Positions 11,999-25,940 of a DNA stretch of 35,735 nt are shown here, piece after piece. The notes under the pieces are model-generated. The model did no database searches. It was not told where the DNA came from and was given only the letters and a program-made list of their open reading frames with translations. Position numbers and translations under genes: made by a program. Each line of letters begins with the position of its first letter. Position 1 is the first letter of the stretch. This DNA comes from Gallionella sp. (GTDB taxonomy: Bacteria; Pseudomonadota; Gammaproteobacteria; Burkholderiales; Gallionellaceae): NCBI GenBank assembly GCA_024653675.1, contig JANLIB010000116.1, forward strand, positions 1 to 35,735, written 5' to 3'.

Positions 11999-12367
11999 GG
12001 GGACGACTTGGCTTCGACGTGGGTTTCAAAGCAGCGTAGGGCATACCGAGGACCCGCCACCTCGTAAATCAGCTGGAAAAAACTAGTCGCAAACGACGAA
12101 ACGTACGCTTTAGCAGCTTAGTCTGCTAGACCTCACACCCTGCTGTCTGTGGAGGGGCTCAAAGCCGCAAGGCTGAGATGAGTGAGGTAACTTACACAGA
12201 ATCGTGTCGAGCAGGGTCACTTTGCTCGAAGCTAAAATCAAGGTGACTCGTCCTTTACCAGCCCGCCGGTTGGCGTGTACGGGATCAAATTAAACAGCCT
12301 GGCTAAGTATGTAGAACTGCCTGTAGAGGGCTTGCGGACGCGGGTTCAATTCCCGCCGTCTCCACCA
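11999..12367 (+). ncRNA. ssrA: transfer-messenger RNA (tmRNA)
   Basis: tmRNA rescues stalled ribosomes and tags the unfinished protein. The 5' end GGGGACG (11999-12005) pairs with CGTCTCC before the encoded CCA (ending 12367), giving the tRNA-like acceptor stem. The T-arm is GGTTCAATTCC (12343-12353). The resume codon GCA is at 12089-12091 and the tag reads (A)NDETYALAA, ending at TAG 12119-12121, within the conserved context of a one-piece beta/gammaproteobacterial tmRNA. Candidate -10 boxes upstream are TATAAA (11980-11985) and TACAAT (11958-11963), neither with a good -35. The 3' end is the attachment site of the adjacent genomic island. Confidence 0.97.
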
Positions 12368-12455
12368 ACAAATAAAAACGACACCCTTGTGGTGTCGTTT
12401 TTATTTGTTGAGTTGTGATTGCACGGGAATTGAATCCGCGTCCGGCACGGGCGCG
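12349..12455 (+). repeat. left direct repeat (attL) including the ssrA 3' end
   Basis: These 107 bp recur at 25648-25753 with one deleted base and about three substitutions (hand alignment). The repeat covers the last 19 nt of ssrA, its terminator, and an inverted copy of the ssrA T-arm (12424-12444). A second shared block follows (12472-12545 against 25852-25925). This is the expected form of an attachment-site duplication made by integration at a tRNA-like 3' end. Confidence 0.8.
12366..12410 (+). terminator. ssrA rho-independent terminator
   Basis: A 20-bp perfect stem (12366-12385 with 12391-12410) and a 5-nt loop follow the tmRNA CCA. The G+C-rich core ACGACACC/GGTGTCGT is followed by GTTTTTATTTG, the usual stem plus U-run. 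The long A/T-rich flank makes it nearly bidirectional, so it could also end hsdR-direction transcripts. Confidence 0.85.
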
Positions 12456-12471
12456 TGGGGTAAGCAGGGAG

Positions 12472-12545
12472 TTCGAGCAGCACCGCTGCGAGCCTGCGAA
12501 CGACAACGCGCATGCAGGCGCGTTGGCTGGCCAGGATGGCCAATT
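12472..12545. repeat. second block shared by both island ends; hairpin-rich
   Basis: These 74 bp recur at 25852-25925 with few changes. They contain short back-to-back palindromes (GCAGCACCGCTGC; CAACGCGC with GCGCGTTG; GGCCAGGATGGCC). No open frame is convincing. At the left end the block follows the 107-bp repeat almost at once, whereas at the right end about 98 bp of extra palindromic sequence lie between them. Confidence 0.65.
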
Positions 12546-12553
12546 CCCAGATC

Positions 12554-12637: not shown

Positions 12638-15790
<3,153 letters not shown>

Positions 15791-15880: not shown

Positions 15881-17290
15881 TCATGCCCAAAAGGGAATGT
15901 AGCTCCGGTAGCGCAAGGATGCCTGCTCTGGGTCTGACAATTTGATCTTACCAGCCTCGACTGAGTCCCGAATGGCGCGTGACACCGCCTCAGCTTTCTT
16001 CTCCGGCAGGTTAAACCTCTCCCGCAAGCTTTGATTCGTCATCTTCTCGTTCATCACATAGCGCAGGCAGCAATGCTGATAGGTAGCACGGATACGGTCA
16101 TTGCGATCCATATCCTCAAAGGCTTTATGGGAAAATAAAACCGCCGTAGTCCTTTTTTCACCTACCCTGAAATCAGGTGCTGGCAATTGAAACATCTCCG
16201 CCGCCTGCACGACTTTGTCCACACCACTGCCTTTTTCCTCACAAATACCCAAGCGCCGCATCAGATCAGCCAACCGCTCATTGCGCGACTGGTATTCATC
16301 AATAAACCGATCCGGCGAAATGAAAGGCTTCCCGGGATTTGAAATCTCCATCCGGTCATCATAAATCTCGATCATCACCGAGGTGCCAGTCTGGGTGAAG
16401 TCCTGATGAATGAGCGCATTCGCCACCAGTTCACGCACCGCAATTTCCGGAAACATTTTCATCTCACGCCGCAGCGCCTGCTCGATCACCTCATTGGAAG
16501 GCACCAGCCCATAGATGAATTCCACCAGCCCTTGATAGCCCACCGCATAACCTTTCATACCCAGCTTATCCAGCTTCGTCTTCAGTTTGTTATTGCCTTC
16601 GTAAACGATCACCCGCGCGGCCTTCCGCGCCAACCGGTCGAACTGTTCCAGCTTCTTGGCAAACAGAATCGCCCCCAGATTCGTGATCGTCCATCTGCCG
16701 TCTTGGCGCTGGATGAGCTTCTCGCTCTCAAAACGTTCCAACACACCTGCCCGATTGACCGGATACGGCAAATGCAGCAGGTCGAAATAGCTCTGCGTAT
16801 CCAGCAATTGCACGACCTTGTCGTCATCACAGTCGATCAGAGCAGGTTGAGAAAACCAGTCCGGCTGCCCCTCGGCAAAAATCGCCCGCAAACGATCCTC
16901 GCTCATCGGCACCAATTCCTCACCGGCGCGCATGAGATAAGCACCTTCGAAATCGTAAACCGTGCCACGCGGGCGGCTCGGAATATGAAACACCAGCACC
17001 CGGCCATCGGGATGCGTCACCTCCTCGATTTCCACCCGAAAACCTAACGCCTGAAACATCTTGGCCGCCATCTCCACAGGATCATTGAAAGCCGCCGTGC
17101 CCACGACCTTGCGGGGTGGTTGATCTTCGATGCCAAGCAGCAGATATCCGCCGCCTTCATTCGCCAACGCCACGCAGTATTTGTAGAGCTTGCGGTTGTC
17201 AAACTGGGTCTTTGCTTCCTTGAACTCCAGCCGCTGGTGCTCCGAATGGGCAGCCCGCCATGCGTCAATTTGTTGGATCGTCGTCGCCAT
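15881..17290 (-). CDS. AlbA_2/Schlafen-type putative DNA-binding protein with RecG-like ATPase C-terminal domain (COG2865 type)
   Basis: The 469-residue protein starts at ATG 17290. The N-terminal AlbA_2 (Schlafen AAA_4) domain is seen in ExxxEFK-like QRLEFKEAK (19-27) and GGGYLLLGIED (47-57). The middle and C-terminal part carries ELVANALIHQDF, EIYDDRMEISNPG and GICEEKGSG, typical of the HATPase-related C-terminal half of these proteins. A winged-helix-like tail follows (MTNQSLRERFNLPEKKAEAVSR). Such genes are frequent companions of type I RM operons, where their role is unknown; regulation or an extra effector function is possible. The start is 7 nt after the rhuM remnant stop, so read-through from that remnant may still deliver ribosomes. 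Confidence 0.85.
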   Translation of the reverse strand: MATTIQQIDAWRAAHSEHQRLEFKEAKTQFDNRKLYKYCVALANEGGGYLLLGIEDQPPRKVVGTAAFNDPVEMAAKMFQALGFRVEIEEVTHPDGRVLVFHIPSRPRGTVYDFEGAYLMRAGEELVPMSEDRLRAIFAEGQPDWFSQPALIDCDDDKVVQLLDTQSYFDLLHLPYPVNRAGVLERFESEKLIQRQDGRWTITNLGAILFAKKLEQFDRLARKAARVIVYEGNNKLKTKLDKLGMKGYAVGYQGLVEFIYGLVPSNEVIEQALRREMKMFPEIAVRELVANALIHQDFTQTGTSVMIEIYDDRMEISNPGKPFISPDRFIDEYQSRNERLADLMRRLGICEEKGSGVDKVVQAAEMFQLPAPDFRVGEKRTTAVLFSHKAFEDMDRNDRIRATYQHCCLRYVMNEKMTNQSLRERFNLPEKKAEAVSRAIRDSVEAGKIKLSDPEQASLRYRSYIPFWA

Positions 17291-17297
17291 ACTTAGC

Positions 17298-17561
17298 TCA
17301 CAATCTTATGGGATATACAGCCATACTCTCTTGCCGAACTATCCGGAATTTCCGGATAGTTGCCTCCCGGCGCAGCTCGCCCTCCTCGAAAATGTTCACC
17401 AAGTGCTCGTTAATCGTCCGCACATCCTTCTGGAACAACTCGGCGATGAGCGCCTGCGATAACCACAGCGTCTCGTTCTCAAACCGGCACTGGATGCGCG
17501 TGCGCCCATCCTCGGTCTGGTAGAGGATGAATTCGGATTGGGATAAGGAATCGTCACTCAT
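17298..17561 (-). pseudogene. truncated RhuM-family (virulence protein) gene
   Basis: From ATG 17561, with a strong AAGGAGG about 9 nt upstream, 87 residues can be read. Residues 9-75 (FILYQTEDGRTRIQCRFENETLWLSQALIAELF and onward to EEGELRREATIRKF) match the N-terminus of RhuM-type proteins, which are normally over 300 residues. After about residue 80 the similarity stops and the frame ends. The rest of the gene has been lost, probably by a deletion that brought the AlbA-domain gene close. The good ribosome site means a short peptide may still be made. Confidence 0.75.
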
Positions 17562-17658
17562 GGCATGGCCTCCTTCAAAACGTAGGAGCAGGCGCGCAAA
17601 GCTGAGGAGCTGGCAACCAAATATGAGGAGCTGCTCCTCAGTTTTGGGGATATAGTCT

Positions 17659-18642
17659 TCATCGGTACGCCCCAGATTTATCTGCGCAGTGTTTGCGAAC
17701 AAACGCAAGCCAAGTGTCATACCAGTACCATGTATTGGCAACCTGAACACCAAACCTCTTCGCAGGGTTTCTTGCGTCACTACTCTTCCAAAGATCAGAG
17801 TGCTGTGCCATTCCGAACTTAGGGAAACCATCAGCCTTTACTTTGGCTACTATTTGCGATGGAAGCCACTTGGGACGCTCGGTCTCTCGAATTAACGAGT
17901 ACGTGGCGTTGACGCTCTTTGCAAGTTCAGAGTCAGCCTTAACGAACGTGATAACCTGATCTGCCTGATTCGGATGGTTCGTGGTTTTCGGTACAAAGAT
18001 CACGCGGTAAGCAAACTTCTCACTCGCAAACTCTTCAGACGTTAGCGCACCGTCGAACCCCTCAATGTATTTTTTGATATGGCCCGGCAGACCCTTCTGT
18101 TGCTCAAGTGTATCGACCTGCTCCTGGCTGAGAGACGAGAATTGCAGACTAACCGCGAGGTGCTTGGCGATGCCATACTCTTTGCCGAACAGTGAAGCGG
18201 CTGCATCGTGATAGTTGATGCAGCAAGCCTGAAAGCGGGCACTCAGGAGATCGTCGATCCTCGTGGTCATCTGATGCTCGATCTCATGCCGAAGACCGAT
18301 CAGAAACTTTAGGTTCTGAACTACATTACGCTCAAGGGGGCACTGCTCCTCGTTCAGGCACCGCTCCAGTTCCCAATGCTTGAAGGCACCGTTCTTAGTG
18401 CGATCGTACTGTTTCCTCTTCGAGCCTTGATTAAAGTACCGATAATCAACCTTCTCGGCGCGGTAGTACGCATGGAGGAGATATGTCCACGCGATATTCA
18501 TCAGGACAATGTAGGTTTCAGACTTGAACGTTACATTCGGGTTGTTGAAAATCTGAACTGCCGCAAGCGCAGCTTCGCGTGATTTCTTTAGCAGTTCTTC
18601 CTTGACGGAAAAAACTCTACGAACACGCTTGGCGGTGCTCAT
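17659..18642 (-). CDS. DUF3644-type protein associated with type I RM operons
   Basis: The 327-residue protein starts MSTAKRVRRVFSVKEELLKKSREAALAA. The stretch KSREAALAAVQIFNNPNVTFKSETY followed by IVLMNIAWTYLLHAYY is characteristic of DUF3644 proteins, which I recall as frequent neighbours of restriction and other defence genes. LIGLRHEIEHQ (113-123) contains an R-x4-H arrangement (R-H-E-I-E-H), reminiscent of HEPN-type active sites; this is an inference. Its ATG overlaps the stop of an hsdS C-terminal remnant (ATGA at 18639-18642), so it was once coupled to a full hsdS. Its codon use is less G+C-rich than hsdR. Confidence 0.75.
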   Translation of the reverse strand: MSTAKRVRRVFSVKEELLKKSREAALAAVQIFNNPNVTFKSETYIVLMNIAWTYLLHAYYRAEKVDYRYFNQGSKRKQYDRTKNGAFKHWELERCLNEEQCPLERNVVQNLKFLIGLRHEIEHQMTTRIDDLLSARFQACCINYHDAAASLFGKEYGIAKHLAVSLQFSSLSQEQVDTLEQQKGLPGHIKKYIEGFDGALTSEEFASEKFAYRVIFVPKTTNHPNQADQVITFVKADSELAKSVNATYSLIRETERPKWLPSQIVAKVKADGFPKFGMAQHSDLWKSSDARNPAKRFGVQVANTWYWYDTWLAFVRKHCADKSGAYR

Positions 18643-18758
18643 GTGGTTTCTTCCGCAATGCGCTCGCCCACGCTCAACTCCCCGCTCAGCAGCTTCGGCA
18701 GCAGCGTGTCGCGCAGGGTGGCGAGGGTGCGGGAAGCCACCAGCCCTTGAAAAGCCAT
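18639..18758 (-). pseudogene. C-terminal remnant of a second hsdS
   Basis: The frame ends with SRTLATLRDTLLPKLLSGEL followed by SVGERIAEETT and a stop, matching the C-terminus of the full HsdS (20310-21767). At DNA level 18668-18734 matches 20345-20411 with four mismatches in 67 (hand count). Only the last ~40 codons survive. The remnant keeps the ATGA overlap with the DUF3644 gene, so it marks the original end of an hsdS that was replaced or interrupted by the hsdS-RT cassette. Confidence 0.85.
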
Positions 18759-18771
18759 CAGTCTGTCTCCA

Positions 18772-20313
18772 TCAGTAATAGCCCTCAGCAGCCTTCGAGA
18801 GAAATAACTCAACTTCTTCCGGTGGAATAACCGGAGCAATTTCGTCACGAGTCGTGGCATCTACAATATTGCTTGCGGCCACAGCAGCCTTCAGAGTAGC
18901 CGAAGAAATCCAATCGATATTCCATAAACTCACATCCTCGCCTGCAACCAATTTGCATATGGCCTCGTCGTAAGCGATGCCGTTGCCGAGTTGCAATGTC
19001 ACACGCTGTAGCCATATCTGCATATGGCCGGTATTGGGTATCTGTGAGAATTTTTTCTTGATGCGTTTGGCGATGGAAAGCCGCTCCACGTAAATTTCGA
19101 CAAAGCTCAGGAGCTTGCTAAGAATCGCCGCGCAAATGGCATAGGTTCTGGGATTGCGATAAGCAATATCGACCACGATTGCGATAAGCGGCATGGCGCT
19201 TTCGGAAAGCGCCTTGACCCTTGAGATGCGCGTATGGTAATTGTTCAGCGCAGTGACAAGGCTGCCAGCGTTTGGGAAGTTAATTGCGTGATCATGAATG
19301 ATGAGCAGGTGTTTCTGCAGGCTCTTTGCTGTTTGTTTTCTACCCAGCCATGCCAGTTTGTCACTCTTTATTGAGGCGCGCACTACATCGCTGCTTGCCT
19401 TGGTTTTAGCTGGGCTGAGTTTGAGTCCGAGACCCATGGTCGTTTCGGTGATGAACTTGACGATCTTCTCGCCGACTTGTGGGCTATTGACGAAAATGCG
19501 GTAATCATCCCGATAGCGCAGTATCCGGTAATCCACGATATCTTCCGCCTTGATTCTGTCCGACAACTCAAGATCGGCGAGACCGAGCACCATCTCCGCA
19601 ACAAAATCCATCAGCGTCGAACCCTGTGGGATTCCATTGGTCTGCCCATGGCGCATGTCCTGAATATGGCCATCAATCACATTCCCAATCAGCTGCTGGT
19701 CATTTCGTTTTTCCTTTGCGGTCGCTTTTGTATGCAACGCCCAGGCAATTGAATGCGTGTAGATAGCGCCGTAGCAGTCAGTGATATCGGTCTCGATCAG
19801 ATATTCGTAGTCAAGCGACATCTCTATGGATTTCTGCTCAACCTCATGCCACCAATGCGATACCTGTTCAGCTTTGTCCTTTTGCTCAGATTCAGAAACT
19901 ATCGGAAGGCTGAGGCAGCGCATTTGTTCGTTTGCGGCGAACTGCTTGAAACGATCACAGATCAGCTTCCAATTGTCATTTTCGGTAATGGCGTGCACAA
20001 GCGAAACATACAAGGCCGGATGAATCAGTTGGAAGGGGCGCCACGCATACTTGCCATCCTTGTTGTGCAGGATGGTGTAATTGACGTCGTCGTGATCTCT
20101 CGGATTGGACTGACGCAAGCTGGGCAGGCTATTGTCGTTGAGGATTTTGCTTACGCTATCAATCAGGTCGCCAAAAACAATGTACGGCGGCAGATCAAGG
20201 CTGCAATAACTTTCTGGCTTCAACAGGAATTTACGCGCCTGATCGCCCGATAGATCGAGAATGGATTTCCTTGCTGGAGTATCCGCTGACAATTCGGATA
20301 TCGCAGTATTCAC
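18772..20313 (-). CDS. reverse transcriptase of abortive-infection/unknown-group type, coupled to hsdS
   Basis: The 513-residue protein starts at GTG 20313, whose GTGA overlaps the hsdS stop. RT motifs are clear: motif A ETDITDCYGAIYTHS (174-188, metal-binding D176), motif B GIPQGS (227-232), motif C YRDD (267-270) in RILRYRDDYRIF, motif D GLKLSPAKTK (296-305), and LAWLG (320-324). There is no maturase, endonuclease or integrase domain and no group II intron or retron msr/msd structure nearby. The C-terminal ~190 residues are predicted helical, as in Abi-type RTs. These features point to the UG/Abi group from which defence-associated RTs come; I cannot name the subclass. No nitrilase or second RT is nearby, and the gaps leave little space for a non-coding RNA partner. 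It lies inside the type I RM operon. Confidence 0.9.
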   Translation of the reverse strand: MNTAISELSADTPARKSILDLSGDQARKFLLKPESYCSLDLPPYIVFGDLIDSVSKILNDNSLPSLRQSNPRDHDDVNYTILHNKDGKYAWRPFQLIHPALYVSLVHAITENDNWKLICDRFKQFAANEQMRCLSLPIVSESEQKDKAEQVSHWWHEVEQKSIEMSLDYEYLIETDITDCYGAIYTHSIAWALHTKATAKEKRNDQQLIGNVIDGHIQDMRHGQTNGIPQGSTLMDFVAEMVLGLADLELSDRIKAEDIVDYRILRYRDDYRIFVNSPQVGEKIVKFITETTMGLGLKLSPAKTKASSDVVRASIKSDKLAWLGRKQTAKSLQKHLLIIHDHAINFPNAGSLVTALNNYHTRISRVKALSESAMPLIAIVVDIAYRNPRTYAICAAILSKLLSFVEIYVERLSIAKRIKKKFSQIPNTGHMQIWLQRVTLQLGNGIAYDEAICKLVAGEDVSLWNIDWISSATLKAAVAASNIVDATTRDEIAPVIPPEEVELFLSKAAEGYY

Positions 20314-21767
20314 GCACTGCCCCCCGCTATTTTTTTGGCGTCGGCCACACTCAACTCACCGCTCAGCAGCTTCGGCAGCAGTGTGTCTCGCAGGGTGGCG
20401 AGGGTGCGGGATTGCTCAATGTTGGCGTGAATCATCGTCATCCACGGCTTTGTTATTTCGCCGAAGCGTTGAGCGATCTTTGCGGACGGTACAGCGATTT
20501 GGAATTGAGCGAAACATTCAGACGGAACACGCTGGCGTCCGCTGGTGCCGGTCATATTTTGGATAGCGTGGAGACGGAGCGCGTCGGAGCGGGCGAGGTA
20601 ATAGCCGAACTCTGGCGTCAATGGTGGCTTCGGGGCAAAGACAATGTATTCGGTCGAGCCCCAGCCGACTTGGCCTTCTTCGAGAAAATCAACGAAAGCA
20701 CTCTTGCCGTTCTCAAGGCAAGGCGTAATGCGTGCCAAGAGCGTGTCGCCGTTTTGGAACTTGGTGCCGGAACTAAACTTGCGGTGGATGACTTCATCGG
20801 CGGCGTGGCCCTGCGTTGGCATGTTTTTCATATCGAGGTAAGGCGAGATAGCTCCACTCTTCAATGTGCGGCGCGGATTGACTTCGATGACTTCAGACAT
20901 TGGCTTCACTTCCCACCCCTGCGGAATATGACCGAGGGGAGAATCTTGAAAGTGTGCGGGGAAGAGTGCGGCAGTGGTAGCGTCAAGGCCAGCGGGTTTG
21001 CGGCCATCGAGTTTGGCGCGGATGGGATCAAAATCCACGAACCAGCTCTGGAACAGCGCCCGTGCCATCGTCTCCAACGTTGCGTTCATCCGCCGGTTCA
21101 TTTCGATCTTGTCATCCAGCGTGCCGAGGATGTGGGCGATGGCTTTTTGTTCGGCGAGAGGTGGGATTTGAACCGAGAACGCCCGTAGGTCTTTTAGAAG
21201 AAGATTCTTCTGGGTCGTGCCCGCAGCAAAGTCACTCAGGCGAGCGTTGTCGAATTGAAGTACATAGTAAAGGAAGCGGGGTAGAACGATTTCCTTCTTT
21301 GGTTTGAGTATCGCGACGCTCTTCTGAAACGTCGTCCGCATAGTTCTTGGGTCATCTGGCGCTATCGCCATCCGGCCAATAGTTCCAGTGTTCGTGAAAA
21401 GAATGTCGCCCGCCCTCAAATTCGTTCGCCGGTGTGTTTCGAGAAAATCAACCTCCGTGATTTGCCGTCCGTTGTCATAAACTAGGCGGCCTCCGAAAAC
21501 ATCCTTCACGCTCAGGAAGTAGTATCCAGAACCTGCTTCGTTGCAGCAGTCACCGTGCTTCCCATCGGTGATGAGGCTGCACAGTTCACCAAGGGAGTGC
21601 TGTCGCCACTCAGCCCCGCAGGTTAGGTTAGCTGCTTCATGGTTCGACACGCTCACCACCGACGGATGTAACCCAACATCGCCATGCGCAGAAACGTTGC
21701 TCGTCGGGTTACGCCCTGACGGGCTAACCCGACCTACGTTTGCCGCATTGTCTGCGCACTTACGCAT
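20310..21767 (-). CDS. hsdS: type I restriction enzyme, S (specificity) subunit
   Basis: HsdS recognises the bipartite DNA target for both methylation and cleavage. It has two target-recognition domains (about 55-180 and 285-430 counting from the in-frame ATG at 21794), each followed by a conserved helical region: QIPPLAEQKAIAHILGTLDD with EMNRRMNATLE, and QSRTLATLRDTLLPKLLSGE. The start is uncertain: ATG 21767 overlaps the mntA stop by 8 nt, ATG 21794 is further upstream, and GTG codons at 21650-21659 would begin just before the normal HsdS sequence (EWRQHSLGELCSLITDG). The ~35 codons between are largely a palindromic repeat. The stop overlaps the RT start. A second copy of its 3' end exists at 18668-18734. 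Confidence 0.92.
   Translation of the reverse strand: MRKCADNAANVGRVSPSGRNPTSNVSAHGDVGLHPSVVSVSNHEAANLTCGAEWRQHSLGELCSLITDGKHGDCCNEAGSGYYFLSVKDVFGGRLVYDNGRQITEVDFLETHRRTNLRAGDILFTNTGTIGRMAIAPDDPRTMRTTFQKSVAILKPKKEIVLPRFLYYVLQFDNARLSDFAAGTTQKNLLLKDLRAFSVQIPPLAEQKAIAHILGTLDDKIEMNRRMNATLETMARALFQSWFVDFDPIRAKLDGRKPAGLDATTAALFPAHFQDSPLGHIPQGWEVKPMSEVIEVNPRRTLKSGAISPYLDMKNMPTQGHAADEVIHRKFSSGTKFQNGDTLLARITPCLENGKSAFVDFLEEGQVGWGSTEYIVFAPKPPLTPEFGYYLARSDALRLHAIQNMTGTSGRQRVPSECFAQFQIAVPSAKIAQRFGEITKPWMTMIHANIEQSRTLATLRDTLLPKLLSGELSVADAKKIAGGSA
21703..21733. repeat. palindromic repeat at the 5' end of hsdS
   Basis: GTCGGGTTA (21703-21711) pairs with TAACCCGAC (21725-21733) and the stem continues inward through GCCC/GGGC around a TGAC loop. 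This is a common dispersed repeat type. In the hsdS frame it codes for GRVSPSGRNPT, residues with no relation to HsdS proteins. The adjoining GGATGTAACCCAACATCGCC (21664-21683) looks like part of a related unit. Confidence 0.7.
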
Positions 21768-22098
21768 CCCCGCCCCCAGCCTGCACCACCACATACGCCC
21801 GCTCGATCTCGCGATGGAAGCTGGCCGGGATATGCGCCCAATCCACCACGTCCACGCGGATGGGCAGCTTGCTTTCCACCAAGGCTTCCTGCATTTCCCA
21901 CAGCTGCGGCGTTTCCTGTTTCAGGTCAGCAGGCTGACGCACAACCAGGTCAAGGTCGCTGGCTTCGTGACCGTCGCCATTGACGCGGCTACCGTAGGCC
22001 CAGACCTCGGCTTGCGGCAGGTGCTGGCGCAGCAGTTCGCGCAGCAATGCCAGATGCTGCGGCTGCATATCCAACCGTTCCAGCGCCAGTTCAGGCAT
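21760..22098 (-). CDS. mntA: MntA-type nucleotidyltransferase antitoxin (type VII toxin-antitoxin)
   Basis: This 112-residue minimal nucleotidyltransferase has the signature G36-S37-x10-D48-x-D50 (YGSRVNGDGHEASDLDL) and a later DVVD (83-86) that would provide the third acidic residue. In characterised HepT/MntA pairs the antitoxin transfers AMP onto the HEPN RNase near its active site and silences it. I chose ATG 22098 ([12 protein letters not shown]); it overlaps the hepT stop by 8 nt (ATGCCTGA). The upstream in-frame ATG 22152 would overlap hepT much more. Its stop overlaps the hsdS frame, so it is embedded in the type I RM operon. Confidence 0.9.
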   Translation of the reverse strand: MPELALERLDMQPQHLALLRELLRQHLPQAEVWAYGSRVNGDGHEASDLDLVVRQPADLKQETPQLWEMQEALVESKLPIRVDVVDWAHIPASFHREIERAYVVVQAGGGDA

Positions 22099-22527
22099 TG
22101 TTCTTTCCTTCGCCGTAGCGTTCTCGCAGGACGGCTTCCAGCCGCGCCACATCGGTGATGAAGTTGGGTATCAGCTTGAGCGTTTCTTTGGCAAAGCCTT
22201 CGCCGTAGTCATGGGCGGTGTTGTTGCGGTTGTCGCGATAGGCAAACCAGCGTTCCACTTCTTCCAGCGTCATCAGGCCATGGGTGGCGGATAACCTCAG
22301 CACATCCTTGATGGGGGTAGAGTCCAGTTTTTTTGCGCCGTATCCGTAATCGCGCAGGGCTTTTTTTAACAGTTTGAAGCTGGTTTCCTGCGTCAGTTCG
22401 TAGCCTTTGACGATGGCGTTGCGGTAGATTTCCTGGTCTATGGTTTCTGGCGCGGCCTGCTCAAAAAAAGTGAGCGATGAGCGCAGGGTCTGGATGCAAC
22501 GCTTGAGGTGATCGGTGTTCAGATTCA

Positions 22528-22531
<4 letters not shown>
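22091..22531 (-). CDS. hepT: HepT-type HEPN RNase toxin (type VII toxin-antitoxin)
   Basis: The 146-residue helical protein carries the HEPN active-site motif R102-x4-H107-x-Y109 (RNNTAHDY), the form typical of HepT RNases paired with MntA nucleotidyltransferases. Residues 30-60 ([25 protein letters not shown]) match the HI0074/HepT family. It is expected to cleave RNA, with the tyrosine as the probable AMPylation site. ATG 22531 overlaps the hsdM stop (ATGA), so toxin translation is coupled to the methylase. A second ATG directly follows at 22528. Confidence 0.9.
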
Positions 22532-24210
<1,679 letters not shown>

Positions 24211-25647: not shown

Positions 25648-25753
25648 ATTCCCGCCGTCCCACCAACAAATAAAAACGGCACCCTTGTGGTGTCGTGTGT
25701 ATTTGTTGAGTTGTGATTGCACGGGAATTGAATCCGCGTCCGGCACGGGCGCG
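25648..25753 (+). repeat. right direct repeat (attR), copy of the ssrA 3' end
   Basis: It matches 12349-12455, with one base lost in the CCACCA region and three substitutions, two of which weaken the terminator T-run. It contains the T-arm end, the terminator stem, and the inverted T-arm copy. It does not rebuild a whole tmRNA. Confidence 0.8.
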
Positions 25754-25940
25754 GGGCGAAGGGCGTTAAACAAACAGCACCTGCGTGCTGTTTGTAGCCC
25801 GGAGCGGCATTCGCGTGCAAGCGAATGTGCGGCCTGCAAGGCAGCAGGAAATTCGAGCAGCACTGCTGCGAGCCTGCGAACGACAACGCGCATGCAGGCG
25901 CGTTGGCTGGACAGGGTGGCCAATTTCCGGCGAGCGCAGC
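25754..25940. repeat. chain of short hairpins right of attR
   Basis: This non-coding stretch has successive palindromes: CAAACAGCA/TGCTGTTTG, CATTCGC/GCGAATG, GCCTGCAAGGC, GCAGCACTGCTGC, CAACGCGC/GCGCGTTG, and GGCGAGCGCAGCTCGCC. The part 25852-25925 is shared with the left island end. No gene is seen between 25507 and 26164; 25941-26047 show nothing further. Confidence 0.6.

Follow-up and report, generated by a model that had tools for sequence, protein, structure and literature searches.

An AbiP2-family polymerase as probable exchangeable cargo between hsdS and hsdR of a type I restriction-modification operon

The operon and its polymerase

The window, by which we mean the whole stretch of 35,735 nucleotides analyzed here from Gallionella sp. 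(contig JANLIB010000116.1 of assembly GCA_024653675.1), harbors a type I restriction-modification (RM) operon. Its genes are read from the minus strand in the order hsdM, a HepT-like gene, an MntA-like nucleotidyltransferase (NTase) gene, hsdS, a reverse transcriptase (RT) gene, a copy of the hsdS tail, a DUF3644 gene, a truncated RhuM-like fragment, a Schlafen/AlbA_2 gene, and hsdR (Table 1). The ORF of the RT is uninterrupted through 513 codons. There is no intergenic space ahead of the RT and only 13 nt separate its stop codon from the next short ORF, in agreement with the scant non-coding space for an RNA template noted in the original prediction. The GTGA coupling described there was also found, as the TGA of hsdS (20312-20310) and the GTG of the RT (20313-20311) share four bases on the minus strand. 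The original prediction did not include the second, partial hsdS 3' end (18664-18734) that directly follows the RT. The true start of hsdS is probably internal to the ORF at 20310-21794, judging from where its best profile match begins.

Table 1 Features of the type I RM operon in the window
Feature	Position	Strand	Remarks
hsdM, type I methyltransferase subunit	22528..24210	(-)	
NTase substrate-binding (HepT-like) protein	22091..22531	(-)	cargo in the hsdM-hsdS gap
MntA-like nucleotidyltransferase	21760..22152	(-)	below NCBIfam cut-off; cargo in the hsdM-hsdS gap
hsdS, type I specificity subunit	20310..21794	(-)	best profile match from residue 61
Left copy of 71-nt hsdS-tail repeat	20341..20411	(-)	within hsdS
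GTGA overlap of hsdS stop and RT start	20310..20313	(-)	putative translational coupling
AbiP2-family RT/DNA polymerase	18772..20313	(-)	513 aa, GTG start; catalytic D176, D269, D270; predicted priming Tyr44
Proposed cassette, hsdS tail - RT - hsdS tail	18661..20414	(-)	block 95.1% identical to L011
Right copy of hsdS-tail repeat	18664..18734	(-)	93% identical to left copy, without HsdS body
39-codon ORF carrying right hsdS-tail copy	18639..18758	(-)	TGA overlaps ATG of DUF3644 gene
DUF3644/PDC-S19 protein	17659..18642	(-)	second cargo gene
Truncated RhuM-like (PDC-S05) fragment	17298..17831	(-)	match limited to about 72 residues
Schlafen/AlbA_2 + HATPase_c_4 protein	15881..17290	(-)	third cargo gene
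hsdR, type I restriction subunit	12638..15790	(-)	

The gap between hsdM and hsdS, which holds the HepT/MntA-like pair (21760-22531), seems to be a second cargo site; a weakly similar pair is present in locus L013 (MntA-like 41%, HepT-like 29%). The intact hsdM ORF carries two copies of a G+C-rich repeat (22781-22821 and 23723-23763, 83% over 41 nt), so the function of HsdM is not certain. The RM island lies at a tmRNA gene with direct repeats at both ends (96% over 97 nt and 93% over 86 nt; 11999-12367, 12362-12548, and 25660-25928) and resembles an element integrated at ssrA. No integrase was detected among the ten window proteins scanned by profile.

The RT belongs to the AbiP2 family of abortive-infection polymerases. 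The PADLOC AbiP2 model matched it with 687.7 bits over residues 14-508 (profile positions 3-487 of 489), whereas the runner-up family, UG14, scored 170.5 bits, and Drt4 and Drt6 reached 147 and 164 bits at best. Pfam recognized RVT_1 alone. Among solved structures, the Abi-P2 chain 7r08 was the only full-length sequence match (residues 15-504, E 4.6e-92). A structure model built from 43 aligned RTs (mean pLDDT 91.1) superposed on 7r08 with TM scores of 0.84/0.88 over 513 alignment columns, compared with 0.60/0.62 for the next entry, DRT6; the superposition includes the C-terminal helical domain of the Abi-P2 fold. Residues D176, Y267, R268, D269, and D270 are invariant across the 43 aligned RTs, as is Y44, which lies in an LPPY motif that aligns with the LPAY motif containing Tyr61 of 7r08. 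The accessible sections of the Abi-P2 study (PMC9508834) report that Abi-P2 forms a trimer, that the purified enzyme synthesizes DNA without a template, and that Y61F abolishes DNA synthesis while Y46F retains it; Tyr61 is the priming residue. By sequence and fold, the window gene is thus an AbiP2-family polymerase with intact active-site residues. By analogy with Abi-P2, its chemistry is likely protein-primed, template-independent DNA synthesis, which would require no RNA template; the lack of one in the window is then expected.

Other classes were considered and rejected. The group II intron model gave 52 bits against a cut-off of 300, the St85 retron model 20.7 bits against 235, and the NCBIfam Drt4 model 113.6 bits against 450; the PADLOC Drt6 score of 164 bits compares with 688 for AbiP2. 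At gathering scores, Rfam yielded only tmRNA in the whole window, which indicates that no known intron or retron RNA is present. A concealed non-coding RNA template was also rejected on account of this Rfam result and the lack of intergenic room before the RT. Several points of the original prediction for the protein stand: a UG/Abi-type defense RT with its motifs intact at the residues named (D176, GIPQGS 227-232, and YRDD 267-270), a long helical C terminus (the C-terminal half is helical in the structure model), no intron or retron parts, and protein-primed, untemplated synthesis like that of AbiK, which AbiP2 membership makes the best reading. Its statement that the enzyme could not be placed in a named class does not hold, since the family profiles (688 versus 170 bits), the structural match, and Y44 settle the classification as AbiP2.

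The window RT is 34-35% identical to the copies in P2-type prophages. Related phage records number six (29-35% identity), and all 150 related plasmid records fall below 60% identity. A single-protein search of viral_contigs, which reaches close relatives only, returned no pattern match. On these three results, a near relative in viruses or plasmids was rejected. On a Lentilactobacillus plasmid (L006:7989-16653), an AbiP2 RT and a DUF4145 gene face a type I RM operon on the opposite strand.

RM neighborhoods and the cargo of the hsdS-hsdR gap

A scan of genome contigs identified 433 relatives of the RT, and neighborhoods were counted for the best 80 of the 433. Profile searches located hsdS upstream, on the same strand and within 4.5 kb, in 29 of these best 80; hsdS was absent in 40, and 11 were undecidable at a contig end. 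The 29 RM-linked loci come from many phyla. Among them, 24 also have a same-strand hsdR downstream. The RT immediately follows hsdS in 20, with no more than 140 nt between hsdS and the RT profile start; in the remaining nine, hsdS is further off, mostly with intervening genes. One locus, L053, has the gene order hsdR-hsdM-hsdS-RT. We labeled a locus solo when at least 1.3 kb of upstream sequence was available and no hsdS body was found in it. Nine of the 40 solo loci have less than 3 kb of upstream sequence, L012 and L066 carry the label despite an hsdS tail before the RT, and the solo-labeled L058 has hsdM downstream.

On a tree of 85 RTs (the 80 loci, the window, and four references), the RM label changes 16 times against a mean of 25.0 after shuffling; none of 500 shuffles was as low, and the starred branches force at least 8 changes. 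On this tree, residence in RM operons is clustered, yet it has been repeatedly gained or lost. The window belongs to a clade of 14 RTs (SH-aLRT 94, not starred), of which 11 including the window RT are in RM operons, 2 are solo-labeled, and 1 is undecidable. The hosts of this clade are Pseudomonadota, Nitrospirota, Hydrogenedentota, Thermodesulfobacteriota, Planctomycetota, and Chlorobiota. One of the solo-labeled members, L012 (2350-5292), has kept its AbiP2 ORF while hsdM, hsdS, and hsdR survive as ends only: upstream, an hsdM start is joined to an hsdS tail, and downstream just the last part of hsdR remains. In L066 (7846-7962), an hsdS tail without a body directly precedes AbiP2, and no other hsd gene was found in the locus. 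The Abi-P2 of phage pro147 is located among phage genes.

AbiP2 was also sampled irrespective of the window RT, in a small sample that yielded 3 of 398, 4 of 369, and 2 of 61 genomes, each count including the window's own. Of the six other loci obtained, L171 belongs to an RM operon, and the four loci L172-L175 show no RM gene in the stretch read; in the sixth, L165, hsdR is present downstream only and the RT starts near the contig end. L165 and L174 contain stops within the RT, and L171, L165, and L175 were taken to be the same contigs as L090, L073, and L045.

To survey the gap itself, we sampled PF11867-type hsdR genes in two sets of genomes, with 44 positives among 229 and 52 among 398, and took 80 stretches of the 101 matches listed. 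Pooled with the loci of the AbiP2 scan, these gave 80 operons whose hsdS and hsdR share a strand: 24 with AbiP2 from that scan, window included, and 56 sampled ones, of which two contain Drt4 (L113 and L161) and 54 contain no RT. In 47 of the 54 RT-less operons, more than 600 bp separate hsdS from hsdR. Gap ORFs were called mechanically, and some are surely not genes; 138 were non-RT ORFs, and the 128 of at least 100 aa (88 in RT-less gaps and 40 others) were scanned. The 88 cargo ORFs of RT-less gaps include 17 Fic, 10 RhuM, 5 SLFN_AlbA_2, 5 DUF3800, 5 Abi_C, and 4 AAA_21 proteins, as well as 2 with AAA_13, the domain of PrrC/RloC. The two Drt4 polymerases (L113:9817-11421 and L161:10553-12181) occupy the same gap, both with a 4-nt overlap. 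Operons whose HsdR is 80-84% identical to that of the window differ in cargo: L039 and L051 contain AbiP2 only (RTs 55% and 52% identical to the window RT), L131 one ORF of 275 aa, and L096 three other ORFs. Residence in the RM gap is not specific to RTs.

The same holds for the overlap with hsdS. Among the 19 operons with no other gene between hsdS and the RT, 15 show a 4-nt overlap at the hsdS stop (13 of 17 with AbiP2, window included, and both with Drt4). Since L011, a relative described below, retains the identical overlap and 15 of these 19 operons show one, the GTGA of the window is not due to chance. Such an overlap is possible in 4 of 7 operons with another gene ahead of the RT and in 26 of 47 operons without any RT, and we therefore rejected it as an RT-specific sign. 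Given the overlap, expression of the RT probably follows that of the RM genes.

In Mantel tests on RM-resident RTs, HsdM and HsdR distances correlate closely (r=0.97, n=19, reached by 0 of 5000 permutations), whereas the RT correlates weakly with HsdR (r=0.30, n=23, 46 of 5000) and HsdM (r=0.36, n=21, 28 of 5000). The contrast between 0.30 and 0.97 led us to reject strict co-evolution of RT and RM; the weak correlations are above zero, and some co-inheritance therefore exists. Type I RM as a recurrent neighbor is supported (hsdS upstream in 29 of the best 80 of 433). The idea in the original prediction that RM is the special partner of the RT is not supported: the RT and RM trees agree weakly, 40 of the best 80 have no hsdS upstream, and the gap accommodates many unrelated genes, among which this overlap is common.

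The last ~29 residues of HsdS behave differently from the rest of the protein. They correlate with the RT at r=0.56 (n=18, 0 of 5000), falling to 0.51 without L011 (4 of 5000) and to 0.43 without L011, L086, and L049 (28 of 5000). The 115-residue stretch ahead of the tail gives r=-0.15 against the tail and r=0.03 against the RT. The tail correlates with HsdR at 0.30 (n=13, 198 of 5000) and with HsdM at 0.11 (n=12, 1411 of 5000). In the hsdR-bearing set without L011, the tail-RT value is 0.38 (n=12, 127 of 5000), or 0.33 given HsdR (102 of 2000); in the hsdM set without the three loci, it is 0.21 (n=10, 520 of 5000). Part of this correlation is accounted for by routine exchange of hsdS bodies whose breakpoint falls at the tail, which is seen in L091/L092 and makes the tail follow the downstream genes. 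Such exchange leaves the right-hand tail in both the window and L011 unexplained.

Copies of hsdS tails and hsdR heads around the cargo

The two hsdS 3' ends that flank the window RT (18664-18734 and 20341-20411) are 93% identical over 71 nt. The nearest relative of the RT among the best 80 of 433 is at L011, from another assembly, and it resides in a different RM system: the RTs are 96% identical, HsdM 73%, HsdR 64%, and HsdS 36%. The DNA block of 95.1% identity shared by the two loci extends from 20414 to 18661 of the window, which is, to within 3 nt, the unit of hsdS tail, RT, and hsdS tail. Identities per 40 nt are 10-20 ahead of the left tail, 32-40 inside the block, and 19 and below past the right tail. 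Further along, L011 contains a Schlafen gene in two overlapping frames, a copy of the hsdR head (84% over 81 nt), Fic, a fusion of an hsdR head with an hsdS tail, RhuM, and hsdR. A similar fusion is found in L036, where a copy of the hsdR head, 94% identical over 152 nt to the locus's own hsdR, is joined to an hsdS tail and directly precedes the RT; hsdR and hsdS of L036 both contain a CTGCGNGAT stretch (Leu-Arg-Asp) at the fusion junction. Its sister, L037, has the ordinary order of hsdS and RT, and the block shared by L036 and L037 starts at that junction. The RT appears to move between RM operons as a cassette with a copy of the neighboring hsdS tail.

We searched for such scars by querying each of the 80 operons with the last 120 nt of its own hsdS and the first 240 nt of its own hsdR. 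Additional hsdS-tail copies are present in the hsdS-hsdR gap of 5 of 80 operons (L011, L036, L093, L100, and the window) and additional hsdR-head copies in that of 4 of 79 (L011, L036, L114, and L136). Combined, 7 of 80 operons carry a scar of either kind: 3 of the 24 with AbiP2 and 4 of the remaining 56. As controls, we used seven segments in 71-80 loci each (the head and middle of hsdS, the middle and end of hsdR, and the head, middle, and end of hsdM), and none had a copy in the gap. Outside it, controls matched for the hsdM end (5 of 72), hsdM middle (2 of 73), hsdM head (1 of 71), and hsdR end (1 of 80); the hsdM-end matches of L114 were dropped for an incomplete hsdM match, and L118 and L121 hold extra hsdM-like stretches. 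When an hsdS-tail profile was run over 33332 six-frame ORFs, one shuffled match reached 12.6 bits; the counted remnants score 26.8-55.4. Profile matches below 25 bits were excluded (L042 at 16.4 and one in L100 at 9.8), and the matches in L027 and L104 were discounted as truncated HsdS. The sole gap scar of L100 is a 27-nt tail copy that coincides with the 9.8-bit match; upstream of the operon, this locus contains longer tail copies, a 21-nt hsdR-head match, and a 240-nt copy of the hsdR-end control. In L069, an hsdS-tail match lies outside the hsdS-hsdR gap.

Copies of the hsdM 3' end precede hsdS in the hsdM-hsdS gap of L111, L118, L152, and L161. This suggests that the same scar rule applies at that gap, a pattern spotted post hoc in what was intended as a control. 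Counting against the cassette model, 73 of the 80 operons have no scar in the gap, and the whole tail-RT-tail unit is found in two different RM systems in one pair only (the window and L011). Neither a free circle nor live excision of the cassette was seen. To see whether the right-hand tail might belong to the DUF3644 gene, three DUF3644 loci were inspected for RM genes; no hsd gene was found beside DUF3644 in L181 and L182 (by script) or L183 (by annotation).

Interpretation and comparison with known systems

We consider it probable that the AbiP2 abortive-infection polymerase is exchangeable cargo of the hsdS-hsdR gap, that it entered as a cassette bounded by hsdS tails, and that it provides a second layer of defense behind the RM enzyme. 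Entry would proceed by recombination in the conserved hsdS tail, either homologous at the 71 nt or through microhomology at hsdR/hsdS junctions, such that HsdS stays complete and the start/stop overlap is kept. Translation of the RT would then be coupled to that of hsdS through GTGA. Restriction would act first and the polymerase second. As judged from the Abi-P2 family, the polymerase would use its own Tyr44 as the attachment point for untemplated DNA; upon infection, it would make protein-bound DNA, and the infected cell would probably be halted or killed.

It is quite possible, however, that there is no such division of labor and that an autonomous AbiP2 owes no more than its expression and mobility to the RM operon. 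The unrelated and varied cargo of the same gap, the weak tie of the RT to the RM phylogeny, and the relatives with no RM upstream are all as expected for a simple passenger. The clustering of RM association on the RT tree (16 versus 25.0 changes, 0 of 500) argues the other way, and may reflect either a benefit of staying or only shared descent.

The boldest functional reading is a guard, in which HsdM/HsdS holds the RT inactive and a phage anti-restriction protein that disables the RM enzyme releases it. The accessible parts of PMC3874165 and PMC12707154 describe such an arrangement for PrrC, which is sequestered by the RM enzyme of the EcoprrI type I operon and freed on T4 infection. The position of the RT and its overlap with the hsdS stop allow this possibility, and 11 of the 14 RTs in the window clade are in RM operons, with L012 additionally keeping RM ends. 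An obligate link is nevertheless opposed by the weak agreement of the RT and RM trees, by the 40 of the best 80 of 433 relatives that have no hsdS upstream and the pro147 Abi-P2 among phage genes, by the retention of the RT in L012 although hsdM, hsdS, and hsdR are reduced to ends, and by the frequency of the overlap with other cargo. We regard a guard as unlikely.

Far less probable is an RNA-templated DRT that copies the operon transcript, an HsdS-proximal RNA, or a tRNA; the last two find no support in the present data. Several other DRT classes do work with non-coding RNA, according to the accessible parts of PMC12596737 and PMC12489045; yet tmRNA is the only Rfam match at gathering score, no intergenic space precedes the RT and only 13 nt follow its stop, and the enzyme belongs to AbiP2, whose purified member Abi-P2 makes DNA without a template in the sections available of PMC9508834. 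Least credible of all is that the tail copies stem from misassembly or from one lineage-specific accident: the window is the entire 35.7-kb contig of a 307-contig assembly, but L011 has the matching tail-RT-tail unit and further scars on a 732-kb contig of another assembly, and five more operons (L036, L093, L100, L114, and L136) carry gap scars.

Returning to AbiP2 as cassette-borne cargo, it is tempting to speculate that the conserved 3' end of hsdS is a general docking site that requires no integrase. Defense genes might shuttle between unrelated type I operons as cassettes with copies of hsdS tails or hsdR heads, excising and inserting through these repeats and restoring HsdS and the overlap with each move, in the way that integrative islands carry the terminal part of their target tRNA gene; cargo such as AbiP2 and Drt4 would then form a second, suicidal layer. 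We offer this generalization tentatively and think it may well prove too broad.

In the portions of the literature available to us, AbiP2 is described from prophages. Its recurrent residence in RM operons points to a natural pair, with restriction first and an untemplated DNA polymerase second, that allows direct testing of whether AbiP2 senses RM. The hsdS-tail scars offer a concrete, searchable route by which defense genes become embedded in RM operons.

The window RT shares full-length homology, fold, RT motifs, priming tyrosine, and C-terminal helical domain with the Abi-P2 of P2-like prophages (PDB 7r08). It differs in its 34-35% identity to the P2-type prophage copies, in its location, which is a type I RM operon and not a prophage, and in having a start that overlaps hsdS. 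Drt4 and Drt6 are likewise UG/Abi RTs, and Drt4 occupies the same gap in L113 and L161; the window RT, however, scores 147 and 164 bits at best with these families versus 688 with AbiP2, and the TM score is about 0.6.

The gene prrC is located between hsdS and hsdR. Its presence in EcoprrI provides a precedent for a single cargo gene within a type I RM operon, as described in the available text of PMC3874165 and PMC12707154. PrrC is an anticodon nuclease, whereas the window RT is a DNA polymerase without AAA_13 (Pfam RVT_1 only), and control of the RT by RM is hypothetical. DarTG2, which occupies the hsdS-hsdR interval in E. coli, and TgvAB, from the V. cholerae type I operon, are likewise embedded defense genes (accessible parts of PMC12255303 and PMC11411939), and the hsdS-hsdR site has already been termed a potential recombination hotspot in the DarTG2 paper (PMC12255303, PMC11411939, same parts). 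The effectors in those systems are different, and scars of hsdS tails or hsdR heads are not described in the accessible parts of either paper. The embedding of defense genes in type I operons is therefore already published; the available text of PMC3874165, PMC12707154, PMC12255303, and PMC11411939 does not state its mechanism. The sections available of PMC8934634 mention one AbiK and one AbiA RT alongside RM genes, and they report AbiP2 near CRISPR loci but not near type I RM; neither "restriction" nor "hsd" occurs in the main text of PMC4244168. Titles and abstract beginnings in the open-access literature searched contained nothing that links AbiP2 or any other RT with the hsdS-hsdR gap, nor any cassette bounded by hsdS tails. 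The enzyme is thus known and so is the kind of site; AbiP2 is, as far as the literature searched shows, a new kind of cargo there, and the account of how cargo enters, as a cassette bounded by hsdS tails, is probably new.
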